Source: an uncultured Bacteroidota bacterium
Lineage (GTDB): Bacteria; Bacteroidota; Bacteroidia; AKYH767-A; OLB10
Length of the DNA stretch: 52,506 nucleotides
Assembly: GCA_903847585.1 (NCBI GenBank)
Contig: CAINEC010000193.1
Location: 1-52,506 of the forward strand
Direction of reading: 5' to 3'
The notes under the pieces are model-generated. The model ran no database searches, had not been told where the DNA came from, and worked only from the letters and a program-made list of their open reading frames with translations. Position numbers and translations under genes: made by a program. Positions 23,385 through 25,815 of the stretch are shown piece after piece. Every line of letters starts with the position of its first letter. Position 1 is the first letter of the stretch.

Positions 23385-23771
23385 TTACTCAACAGGCAAA
23401 CTTGCAGATTGCCAAGCATTGATACCACCATTCAATTCAAAAACATTTTTGAATCCATGAGTTCGCATCCACTCAGCAGCTAATCCACTTCGGTGTCCGC
23501 TACGACAATACAAAAAATAGTTTTTTGATTTATCGTATCTAGAAACGATACTTTCAAATCCACCACCATTCCAATCAGCATTCACAGCACTTTTAATATG
23601 GCCTTCTGAGAATTCCCCAGGAGTTCGTACATCCAAAAGCACTATATTTTTTGATGCTGCCATCTTGTCTGAAAACTGTCTCGGACTTAAAGCATTATTT
23701 GAAGTTTGTCCAGAGCAAGCTGTGAAAAACCAAGCCGTTAAAATGGTAATTAAAGAATATACTTTTTTCAT
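23385..23771 (-). CDS. Rhodanese-domain lipoprotein
   Basis: A 128-residue single-domain rhodanese with an export signal (MKKVYSLITILTAWFFTAC) and a likely lipid-modified Cys19. The domain has VLLDVRTPGEFSEGHIKSAVN and the active loop YCRSGHRSG, whose Cys would carry the persulfide, then GINAW near the end. It is probably periplasmic, unlike the other two rhodaneses of the cluster. It begins 2 bases after the thioredoxin gene stops, indicating one operon. Confidence 0.88.
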   Translation of the reverse strand: MKKVYSLITILTAWFFTACSGQTSNNALSPRQFSDKMAASKNIVLLDVRTPGEFSEGHIKSAVNADWNGGGFESIVSRYDKSKNYFLYCRSGHRSGLAAEWMRTHGFKNVFELNGGINAWQSASLPVE

Positions 23772-23773
23772 AG

Positions 23774-24070
23774 TTAAGAATTTTGATTAATGATTTGTTC
23801 TAAATAATCGGCAGGCACAACGCCTGATTGGCGCCATAACACTTTCCCATTTTTGAAAAGAATTAAGGTAGGCACACCTTGAATTTGAAATGCTGCTGCA
23901 GCTTGCGGATTTTTATCTACATCTACCTTTAAGATTGAAGCATGACTTCCAACTCTTGATTTTAAATCTTCTAAAATTGGATGCATCATTTTACATGGTC
24001 CACACCACTCTGCTGAAAAGTCGACTAATACCAGCTTGTCTGATTGAATTAATTCTGAAAAAGTTGACAT
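23774..24070 (-). CDS. Thioredoxin
   Basis: A 98-residue cytosolic thioredoxin with the redox motif AEWCGPCKMMHP and the cis-proline GVPTLILFKNGK. Length is typical for thioredoxin without extensions and there is no signal peptide. It sits between rhodaneses, so a likely job is reducing persulfides or disulfides formed on rhodanese and OsmC cysteines. The gap to the upstream rhodanese gene is 11 bases. Confidence 0.92.
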   Translation of the reverse strand: MSTFSELIQSDKLVLVDFSAEWCGPCKMMHPILEDLKSRVGSHASILKVDVDKNPQAAAAFQIQGVPTLILFKNGKVLWRQSGVVPADYLEQIINQNS

Positions 24071-24081
24071 GATTTTTTTTA

Positions 24082-24396
24082 TTATTTGATTTTGTTATTT
24101 AAACTCATCCAGCCACCGCCATTGTGCACATCGGCAAAACCACTTGCTTTCAATATGCTTTTAGCAGAAGCACTACGCATTCCTGATGCACAACAAGTAA
24201 TTACGGGTTTATCTTTTTTTATTTTTGATAAAGATTGTTGCAATGCATTCAATGGAATGTTTACCGATCCACGAATATGTCCGCCTTGATACTCGCCCTT
24301 CGTACGCACATCAATTATCTGTGCACCATTTTCAATTAGTTCTTTGTAATTAACAGCGGGACCAAAACCTAATAGTTTTTTAATTGTATTTATCAT
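24082..24396 (-). CDS. Rhodanese-like sulfurtransferase (cytosolic)
   Basis: A 104-residue single rhodanese domain with QIIDVRTKGEYQGGHIRGSVNIPL and the active loop TCCASGMRSA. The active Cys is the second of a CC pair. The N-terminal 15 residues are hydrophobic-basic but too short for a clear signal. It is closely similar to the next rhodanese upstream (CCASGMRS, GGHxxGSxNIPL, NGGxW), so the two look like a tandem duplication. Confidence 0.88.
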   Translation of the reverse strand: MINTIKKLLGFGPAVNYKELIENGAQIIDVRTKGEYQGGHIRGSVNIPLNALQQSLSKIKKDKPVITCCASGMRSASAKSILKASGFADVHNGGGWMSLNNKIK

Positions 24397-24408: not shown

Positions 24409-24663
24409 TTAATAATCACCATTTACATCTAACCAAGAACCACCATTTTCACAATTAACACCGAGACTTTTTAAATACGCTGTAGCTTGTCCACTTCTCA
24501 TTCCACTTGCACAACATAAAACTATAGGTTGAGCCAACGCCATAATTTCATCTTTACGATTTTGAATTTCTTGCAATGGAATATTTATACTTCCAGCAAC
24601 ATGTCCGCCCATAAACTCACCTGGAGTTCTTACATCAATAATTGTCATTTTTTGATTTGTCAT
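24409..24663 (-). CDS. Rhodanese-like sulfurtransferase (cytosolic, short)
   Basis: An 84-residue minimal rhodanese. MTIIDVRTPGEFMGGHVAGSINIPL and the loop LCCASGMRSGQ carry the CH2-type motifs and active Cys. It starts 1 base before the osmC stop region ends (gap of 1 base), so it is tightly coupled to osmC. It is paralogous to the following rhodanese gene. Confidence 0.88.
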   Translation of the reverse strand: MTNQKMTIIDVRTPGEFMGGHVAGSINIPLQEIQNRKDEIMALAQPIVLCCASGMRSGQATAYLKSLGVNCENGGSWLDVNGDY

Positions 24664-24664
24664 T

Positions 24665-25120
24665 TTAACTAAGTATTGTTTCCTTTTTATTTGTGAATAT
24701 TAAATGTCCATTGTAAGTCACATCCCATGTAACAGGAATTATTTTCTTTAACATATGACTTATCCCGCAATATTTTTCTTGTGAAGCCATCACCGCATCT
24801 AAAGCCGCTTGCTTTGAATCCTCATTCCCTTTGAATTCATAAACAATATGAATAGCGATGTATTCAATAGGCGCTTGCTTACTGATTTCACCAGTCACCT
24901 TCATATTAAAATCTTGCACTTGATGACTAGATCGTTTAAGAATAGCTATTACATCCATTCCCGTACAACCTGAAAGTGCAGATAAAACAAAAGGTTTCGG
25001 AATTGGTCCATTGTCTTCTCCACCTACTCTTTCAGGAGCATCCATAACAACGGTGTGACCATTTACAAGGGCATTGAATTGCATTTTACCCATCCACTGT
25101 GTTTCTATTTCGTGTGTCAT
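24665..25120 (-). CDS. OsmC/Ohr family peroxiredoxin-like protein
   Basis: A 151-residue OsmC-family protein. Cys52 in LSALSGCTGMDV and Cys118 in QEKYCGISHML are the peroxidatic and resolving pair that reduces organic hydroperoxides or hydropersulfides. MTHEIETQWMGKMQF is the usual N-terminal strand. The ATG at 25120 is chosen; an upstream ATG at 25156 lies inside the proposed promoter. It is the first gene of the OsmC-rhodanese-rhodanese-thioredoxin-rhodanese run and follows the CRP-like regulator by 65 bases containing a CRP-like operator. Confidence 0.88.
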   Translation of the reverse strand: MTHEIETQWMGKMQFNALVNGHTVVMDAPERVGGEDNGPIPKPFVLSALSGCTGMDVIAILKRSSHQVQDFNMKVTGEISKQAPIEYIAIHIVYEFKGNEDSKQAALDAVMASQEKYCGISHMLKKIIPVTWDVTYNGHLIFTNKKETILS

Positions 25121-25145
25121 AATTGAAATTTTTAAATTGACACTG

Positions 25146-25190
25146 CAAAGTTGCAATAGAATTCAGCGGTTAACAGTGACTAATATCACA
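25146..25190 (-). promoter_or_regulatory. CRP-like operator plus near-consensus -7 element before osmC
   Basis: On the minus strand TGTGA-N6-TCACT (25175-25190), a one-mismatch match to the CRP/FNR-family palindrome, overlaps the regulator's stop codon. A -7-like CAACTTTG (25146-25153, one mismatch from TAnnTTTG) lies downstream. The palindrome centre is about 40 bases before the predicted transcription start, the class II activator position. The osmC ATG is 25 bases further on. Confidence 0.6.
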
Positions 25191-25815
25191 TTGCGTTTAG
25201 AAGCTTAATTTGATTTCGATAGATAAGTAATCTACCATCGAGTTCAAGTTTTTTTAAAAGTCGTGAAATTACTTCACGAGAACTTGCTAAATCATTGGCT
25301 ATTTCGGTATGGGAAAGATTCAATACTGCAGAGCCTGTAAGTTTCGATTTTTCCTTCAGATAATTTACTAATCGCTCGTCCAATTTTTGAAATGCTAATT
25401 GATCAATAGCGTGCATCAATTCATTAAATCGACTGCGAATCGTTCGCATCACAAAACTTTTCCATGTTGGATATTTAACAATCCACTCATCCATAACAGA
25501 AATTGGTATTGCTAAAAATGTCACATCTTCCTCTGCAACAGCTTGCACTTCACTTGGAAACTGCTGCATGCAACAAGTGAATGTCATTGCACAACCTTCC
25601 ATAGCATTTAAATAATAAAGAAATATTTCATTCAGTTTATCATCTAAACGAGATACTTTCAAACTACCTTTTAAGAGAAAAGGGATAACTCTTACTGTTT
25701 GTCCAATACTAATTATTTTATCTCCTTCTTTAGCCTCAACCACTTTTACCTTCTCCTCGAACTCTTTTATTAATTCAGGCTCGAACACATTTTTGAAAAT
25801 TTCTTTAAAATCCAT
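25186..25815 (-). CDS. CRP/FNR-family regulator with Cys-rich sensor loop
   Basis: A 209-residue regulator: cNMP-binding-like beta-roll (about 20-110), dimer helix, and a winged HTH at 168-190 (SHTEIANDLASSREVISRLLKKL). Where CRP binds cAMP phosphate (GELGL...RSA) this protein reads EGCAMTFTCCMQQFPSEV, so the Glu and Arg ligands are gone and Cys75, Cys81 and Cys82 take their place. cAMP binding is unlikely; persulfide, disulfide or metal sensing is plausible. It is followed by the OsmC/rhodanese/thioredoxin genes and a matching operator, so it probably activates them. Its own start is 18 bases after the SGNH gene, leaving open read-through from that operon. Confidence 0.87.
   Translation of the reverse strand: MDFKEIFKNVFEPELIKEFEEKVKVVEAKEGDKIISIGQTVRVIPFLLKGSLKVSRLDDKLNEIFLYYLNAMEGCAMTFTCCMQQFPSEVQAVAEEDVTFLAIPISVMDEWIVKYPTWKSFVMRTIRSRFNELMHAIDQLAFQKLDERLVNYLKEKSKLTGSAVLNLSHTEIANDLASSREVISRLLKKLELDGRLLIYRNQIKLLNAM

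Follow-up and report, generated by a model that had tools for sequence, protein, structure and literature searches.

A conserved CRP-like palindrome on the stop codon of a Crp/Fnr-family regulator gene is the probable class II operator of a sulfane-sulfur operon in Bacteroidota

RESULTS

A regulator gene, a CRP-like palindrome, and sulfur-related genes lie in succession

The window, by which we mean the whole stretch of DNA analyzed here, comprises 52,506 nt of contig CAINEC010000193.1 (assembly GCA_903847585.1) from an uncultured Bacteroidota bacterium (AKYH767-A; OLB10). On the minus strand, it encodes a Crp/Fnr-family regulator followed by an OsmC-like protein, two rhodaneses, a thioredoxin, and a third rhodanese (Table 1). 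The initial annotation described a TGTGA-N6-TCACT palindrome on the regulator's own stop codon and, downstream, a near-consensus −7 element. Both are present: the palindrome is exact, its TGTGA half includes the TGA stop, and CAACTTTG fairly deserves to be called near-consensus. The regulator reading frame ends with AAT GCA ATG TGA, and TGTGATATTAGTCACT starts 2 bases ahead of the TGA. The TTTG of CAACTTTG lies 26 nt past the 15th base of TGTGATATTAGTCACT, and the originally annotated span of 25146-25190 corresponds exactly to the palindrome, these 26 nt, and the TTTG.

The closest NCBIfam model to the first downstream gene is PRK10738, under its cut-off, and we therefore refer to the product as OsmC-like rather than OsmC proper. 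A start of this gene at a TTG at 25156, which would add 11 codons, was rejected because it falls within the promoter; the ATG at 25123 is probably the true start. An Rfam gathering scan and a tRNA scan of the window returned nothing.

Table 1. Features of the regulator-operon locus
Feature	Position	Strand	Evidence or remarks
Operator TGTGATATTAGTCACT	25175..25190	-	Exact TGTGA-N6-TCACT, 0 mismatches; conserved in relatives
Regulator TGA stop, common to left half-site	25186..25188	-	Reading frame; covariation
−7 element CAACTTTG	25146..25153	-	Consensus TAnnTTTG, one mismatch; TTTG spacing in relatives
Predicted transcription start	25141..25141	-	Inferred from F. psychrophilum −7 box at −12 to −5; operator centre −41.5
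Crp/Fnr-family regulator, 209 aa	25186..25815	-	PF13545, PF00325 over cut-off; PF00027 26.0 bits vs cut-off 27.5
Recognition helix R180-E181-V-I-S-R185	25261..25278	-	R180, R185 invariant in 86/86 aligned regulators
E181 codon	25273-25275	-	Within recognition helix
C75, C81, C82, candidate sensor	25570..25593	-	Replace cAMP phosphate-binding cassette
OsmC-like protein, 152 aa, first operon gene	24665..25123	-	PF02566, 54 bits
Single-domain rhodanese 1	24409..24663	-	PF00581
Single-domain rhodanese 2	24082..24396	-	PF00581
Thioredoxin	23774..24070	-	PF00085; NCBIfam TIGR01068 over cut-off
Rhodanese 3, lipoprotein-like N-terminus (by eye)	23385..23771	-	PF00581

Chance expectations were estimated from 40 Markov-1 sequences matching the window in composition: per window, TGTGA-N6-TCACT is expected 0.125 times in exact form and observed once, and a palindrome combined with TTTG is expected 0.025 times and likewise observed once. 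Motifs with up to two mismatches are not enriched in the window (47 found versus 51.2 expected). In the whole 3.0-Mb genome, the window's site is the only composite with zero mismatches, while composites with one mismatch number nine, versus six with a reversed-pattern control. Because this last count is near the control, we do not claim a genome-wide regulon by pattern alone. The ORF behind L115 was judged by eye to be secreted and kelch-like. Taken alone, these statistics are suggestive only. With mismatches allowed, enrichment is absent in the window and scant in the genome, as would be expected if the palindrome were a functionless product of chance; its conservation, the fixed spacing across relatives, and the covariation described below make such an origin exceedingly improbable. 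We argue for function rather than chance because the palindrome is conserved across relatives with a fixed spacing.

The palindrome is conserved downstream of related regulator genes

Homologous loci were gathered from GTDB genomes and further genomes, yielding 181 with a match to the regulator. Pedobacter arcticus A12 (L052) and Sediminibacterium soli (L060) are cultured isolates among the carriers. From these, we kept 163 distinct loci after dropping four without a stop codon, 13 that were identical-ended, and one short match (L105), which itself carries the palindrome. The zone from 20 nt before to 350 nt after the regulator stop was searched for the composite pattern TGTNA-N6-TNAC, in which positions 4 and 13 are free, with TTTG 25-27 nt on. 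Of the 163 loci, 78 had the composite site in the 3' flank, and none of the 163 reversed flanks did. Thus, the palindrome is conserved; a lack of conservation would, according to the initial annotation, have refuted the operator. Among the 85 loci lacking a composite in the 3' flank, 67 have a regulator with less than 55% identity. At an identity of at least 55%, the composite is present in 52 of 70 loci and absent from 18, and a palindrome right on the stop codon, with no TTTG required, is found in 54 of the 70. All four of the last-fetched loci (L255-L258), which are outside the counts based on 78 and 163 loci, have the composite on the stop codon. No palindrome was found in L070, in which the regulator is 68% identical and the locus has none of the searched operon genes. 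Plasmid records gave 30 matches, all with less than 60% identity. In L010, the 3' flank of the regulator gene contains tandem palindrome-like sites, AGTAACCTTTGTTACA and then TGTAACCCCGGTTACT, ahead of the promoter.

The spacing between palindrome and −7 element is rigid

Of 92 palindromes picked out regardless of any promoter, 73 are followed by TTTG at an offset of 26 nt from the 15-mer and five at 27 nt; no other offset between 5 and 45 occurs more than three times. The spacing is 26 or 27 nt in all 78 composite sites, though 25 was permitted. Of the 78 sites, 47 are in register with the stop codon and 31 are out of register (offsets −14 to +288); these 31 retain the promoter spacing too. 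An inverted repeat on the end of a gene could also work at the RNA level, by terminating the regulator mRNA or forming a stem at its end. This we consider very unlikely, since no T-run follows the repeat in the window, the spacing is kept to the promoter and not to the stop codon, and standard pairing between positions 4 and 13 is possible in just 53 of the 78 sites, with 12 V-type sites having A-A; on this pairing count, an RNA hairpin or terminator was rejected.

Mapped starts place the sigma-A box (TAnnTTTG) of Flavobacterium psychrophilum at −12 to −5 (PMC9723704). This box position and the 26-nt spacing together predict a start at about 25141 and, therefore, an operator centre at −41.5. 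The original proposal of an operator about 40 bases upstream of a predicted start, at a class II position, agrees with this value, and 25175-25190 would accordingly sit at the position of a class II activator. Alternatively, the regulator could repress the operon and be relieved by sulfur compounds, as SqrR/BigR and CstR are; these known persulfide sensors are repressors (PMC7315123, PMC9774590). We regard repression as unlikely because a centre near −41.5 that leaves the −7 box uncovered, together with the rigid 26-nt spacing, is an activator position, and because 28 of 38 E-type promoters (11 of 34 V-type) begin their −7 box with G or C instead of T, a feature of weak promoters that depend on an activator.

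Residue 181 of the regulator covaries with the operator

Residue 181 carries the same number here as in the CRP of E. coli. The 78 regulators with a site divide evenly at this position, 39 having Glu and 39 Val. The fourth base of the left half-site is G in 34 and A in five of the sites associated with Glu181, and A in 35, G in two, and T in two of those associated with Val181. Its partner base in the right half-site is C in 29 and T in 10 (Glu181) versus T in 20, A in 12, C in four, and G in three (Val181). The exceptions to the rule that Glu goes with G and Val with A are L006, L081, L168, L196, and L204 (Glu with A); L029, L069, and L255 (Val with G); and the two Val sites with T. The rule was first noticed in loci L001-L110, and 18 later loci with a site served as a check: with Glu181, the left base is G in four of seven and the right base C in five of seven, and with Val181, the left base is A in 10 of 11 and the right base C in none of 11. 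Of the last-fetched loci, L256, L257, and L258 obey the rule, while L255 (Val with TGTGA) does not. L255 (genome G007) and L029 (G020) share the genus code g2, and in both a Val181 regulator is paired with a half-TGTGA site, TGTGAT...GTTAC, on the stop codon. At some sites of Val181 regulators, a T or A in the right half (e.g., L065, L073, and L085) generates TGTAAC-N3-TGTAAC, which resembles a direct repeat.

Among the Crp papers drawn on here (PMC11253593, PMC12531629), the former describes a contact between Glu181 of E. coli CRP and the cytosine in the G4:C4 pair; therefore, losing Glu should free the fourth base of the operator. Based on the bases found with Val181, recognition looks relaxed rather than switched.

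In a maximum-likelihood tree built with the recognition-helix columns left out, eight changes between Glu and Val are needed, of which six are forced by well-supported branches. Six independent pairs on well-supported branches were available; the left base gave 4.1 pairs in the same and 1.0 in the opposite direction (median p 0.375), and the right base 4.7 and 0 (median p 0.0625). When the two traits are modelled as dependent, the fit is better than with independence, both for the left base (likelihood ratio 28.7, p 9e-6) and for the right base (likelihood ratio 24.8, p 5.5e-5), both p values being approximate because they derive from a custom optimiser with two starts, one rooting, and a flat root prior. 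Altogether, the covariation of residue 181 and operator is supported, with few independent switches behind it.

In register, the stop codon mostly follows the residue at position 181

In the 47 loci with an in-register site, the regulator gene stops with TGA in 17 and TAA in two cases when residue 181 is Glu, and with TAA in 26 and TGA in two when it is Val; by construction, the middle base of an in-register stop is the fourth base of the left half-site, and the two are the same measurement. Likewise, that the last codon is nTG in 47/47 of these loci follows by construction and is no evidence. In the 31 out-of-register loci, the pattern is if anything the opposite, with TAA in 15, TAG in four, and TGA in one for Glu and TAA in four, TGA in four, and TAG in three for Val. 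As a second control, the best matches to rhodanese 2 in the register loci stop with TAA (13) or TGA (3) for Glu and with TAA (13), TAG (4), or TGA (3) for Val, while the regulator genes in these same loci stop with TGA (16) or TAA (1) for Glu and TAA (19) or TGA (1) for Val. Because of these two controls, we conclude that the stop difference between Glu and Val loci is not a general stop-codon habit.

A DUF983 gene is a likely second target

The same genome carries AGTGATAATTGTCACT / AGTGATAATTGTCACTG, with TTTG at 26 nt, before a DUF983 gene (G000:C20:42815-42859; L114, L206). Among 30 genomes, the best 30 of the matching places, the composite precedes a DUF983 gene in 12 and the reversed control in none. 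The fourth base of this unlinked site agrees with residue 181 of the genome's regulator in seven of eight judgeable genomes, several of which share a genus, so that these are not eight independent tests. Agreement is seen in G000, G001, G002, G015, and G019 (Glu, GTGA) and in G020 and G060 (Val, GTAA), and disagreement in G007 (Val, TGTGA; the genome of L255); G003, G005, and G022 hold both Glu and Val homologues and are not judgeable. Support for the DUF983 site comes only from relatives, not from the pattern search in this genome. In G004, the site is present before the DUF983 gene, but no relative of the window regulator was found. On these sequence comparisons, the DUF983 gene is likely a second target of the regulator, and G004 counts against this.

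G004 also bears on the question of which protein binds. In the genome of the window, counted by PF13545 alone, two proteins are over the cut-off, i.e., the window regulator and a 355-residue protein; the helix of the latter, read within its C-terminal 230 residues, is T-E-S-L-I-R, and the window regulator is the only one of the two with an R-E-x-x-x-R helix. The gene for the 355-residue protein (G000:C162; L237) lies near P-type metal ATPase-like and histidine kinase-like ORFs, both named by eye. A homologue of this protein is present in G004, where the DUF983 site matches in shape and spacing although no relative of the window regulator was found, as would be expected if the palindrome were a real Crp/Fnr-type site bound by another family member, e.g., the 355-residue protein. 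We consider a different binder improbable: the operator varies with residue 181 of the adjacent regulator, the unlinked DUF983 site tracks this residue too with one exception in eight, and the 355-residue protein has a different helix. It is because of the covariation between residue 181 and operator that we tie the site to the family of the adjacent gene.

Sulfur-related genes accompany the site

The initial annotation assigned the operator specifically to osmC, on the ground that it directly follows the regulator gene. The link to the adjacent regulator gains from the covariation with its residue 181, but osmC is too narrow a target, since OsmC-like genes occur in only 30 of the 78 site loci. 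Nor is this the only promoter with such a site, a similar one being found at the DUF983 gene elsewhere. Rhodanese-type genes are present in 57 and YgaP-like genes in 35 of the 78 loci, and in L053 a YgaP-like gene is first in order. The 11 query genes used included those for OsmC-like, rhodanese, YgaP-like membrane, TauE, thioredoxin, SulP, metallo-beta-lactamase-rhodanese (persulfide-dioxygenase type), sulfur transport, and CoA-disulfide-reductase-like proteins; several carry a rhodanese domain and match the same genes. At least one query match is present in 76 of the 78 site loci, 52 of the 85 loci without a site, and 1/30 and 0/15 control loci, with a mean locus length of 5.0 kb for site loci and 2.9-3.9 kb for the others.

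Sixteen further composite sites, counted without a shuffled control, lie within the loci. They precede genes for persulfide-dioxygenase-type (L159; L162 by resemblance), TauE-like (L189, L202, by resemblance), sulfur-transport (L164), SulP (L200), and rhodanese (L019, L022) proteins and for a CoA-disulfide-reductase-like protein with rhodanese (L102). Others lie before a TolC-like ORF, named by eye (L108), a DUF983-like gene (L172), or no listed ORF (L145). In four distant relatives (L019, L022, L153, and L187), a composite upstream of the regulator's own start suggests autoregulation.

The regulator is a Crp/Fnr-type protein with conserved cysteines

The regulator belongs to the Crp/Fnr superfamily by its domains, with PF00027 just below the cut-off, and by its fold: the AlphaFold model (mean pLDDT 84.8) has the CRP fold, and the best structural match is 4ev0. 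It is not CRP proper (NF008732, 37.4 bits versus a cut-off of 266) and has no Arg at the place of CRP R82 in an alignment by eye; nor is it FNR (NF008365, 21.7 bits versus 228), its first cysteine being C75. Among 86 aligned regulators, C75 is conserved in 85, C81 in 83, and C82 in 77, and all three are invariant in 39 of 39 rows; by sequence, the regulator thus has the conserved cysteine pair of persulfide sensors. We claim no distance between the cysteines because the model is a monomer and its confidence is lowest at this segment (block means 62 and 70). The regulator probably senses reactive sulfur through the candidate sensor thiols. Reactive sulfur is the signal that requires the fewest assumptions, though the same thiols may instead respond to oxygen, NO, hydroperoxide, or metal.

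DISCUSSION

Here, we present an analysis of a CRP-like palindrome in an uncultured Bacteroidota bacterium. The likeliest explanation is that the Crp/Fnr regulator uses 25175-25190, on the stop codon of its own gene, as a class II operator to activate the sulfane-sulfur operon. According to this model, a regulator dimer would bind centred at −41.5, setting R180, E181, and R185 against each TGTGA half-site. From there, it would stimulate transcription by sigma-A RNA polymerase from the CAACTTTG promoter, switching on the operon for the OsmC-like protein, two rhodaneses, thioredoxin, and the third rhodanese. Most likely, increasing levels of persulfide or of another form of reactive sulfur would modify the thiols of C75, C81, and C82 and thereby switch DNA binding; the operon products may then relay or remove sulfane sulfur.

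E. coli CRP uses R180, E181, and R185 to bind a TGTGA-N6-TCACA-like operator, which at class II promoters is centred near −41.5. The window regulator resembles it in fold, in these three residues, in the type of operator, and in the predicted centre near −41.5, but lacks an Arg at the R82 place, has cysteines in the cassette, and is paired with a Bacteroidota TAnnTTTG promoter; among the Foldseek matches listed, its identity to E. coli CRP/CAP chains is 16-19%. The nearest solved relative by sequence is 3DV8, a Crp/Fnr protein of Eubacterium rectale from structural genomics (E 1.6e-21), which keeps the equivalents of C75 and C81 and has Ile at the C82 place. Reportedly, the CAP E181 mutants studied by Ebright in 1984 recognize the G:C pair of TGTGA less strictly once Glu181 is lost. 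Such relaxed recognition of this pair is what the two cases have in common; here, in contrast, Glu and Val are natural, changed at least six times on the tree, and are tied to the gene's stop codon. Among the literature matches listed, residue-base correlations concern the IclR and MerR families and none Crp/Fnr.

Sulfide and persulfide detoxification genes are controlled by CstR, SqrR/BigR, and FisR, which have two or three cysteines (PMC7315123, PMC9774590) and belong to the CsoR, ArsR, and sigma54-activator families, respectively, unlike the Crp/Fnr-type regulator described here. None of the reactive-sulfur regulators treated in the sections of PMC9774590 drawn on (CstR, SqrR/BigR, FisR) is of the Crp/Fnr type, and in the open-access literature searched, we found no description of a Crp/Fnr persulfide sensor or of the present operon. 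Class II action by Crp/Fnr proteins is already known; new here are the kind of sensor proposed and the placement of the operator on the stop codon. It is quite possible, and we advance this tentatively, that Crp/Fnr proteins with C-x5-C-C form an undescribed class of reactive-sulfur sensors whose operator doubles as last codon plus stop, with residue 181, the stop codon, and the far half-site co-evolving.

If so, the regulator would be a Bacteroidota counterpart of CstR, SqrR, and FisR, and its family would repeat in nature the altered-specificity experiment done with CAP E181. The near two-letter code, in which Glu goes with TGTGA and a TGA stop and Val with TGTAA and a TAA stop, is a naturally occurring example of a transcription factor that changes along with its operator, the codon for residue 181 and the operator lying at the same end of the gene, no more than about 100 bases apart. 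Known exceptions aside, operators may be guessed from the protein sequence, and site, promoter, and partner residue lend themselves to joint testing. For the Bacteroidota, the regulator and its operator provide a candidate switch for sulfane-sulfur handling.
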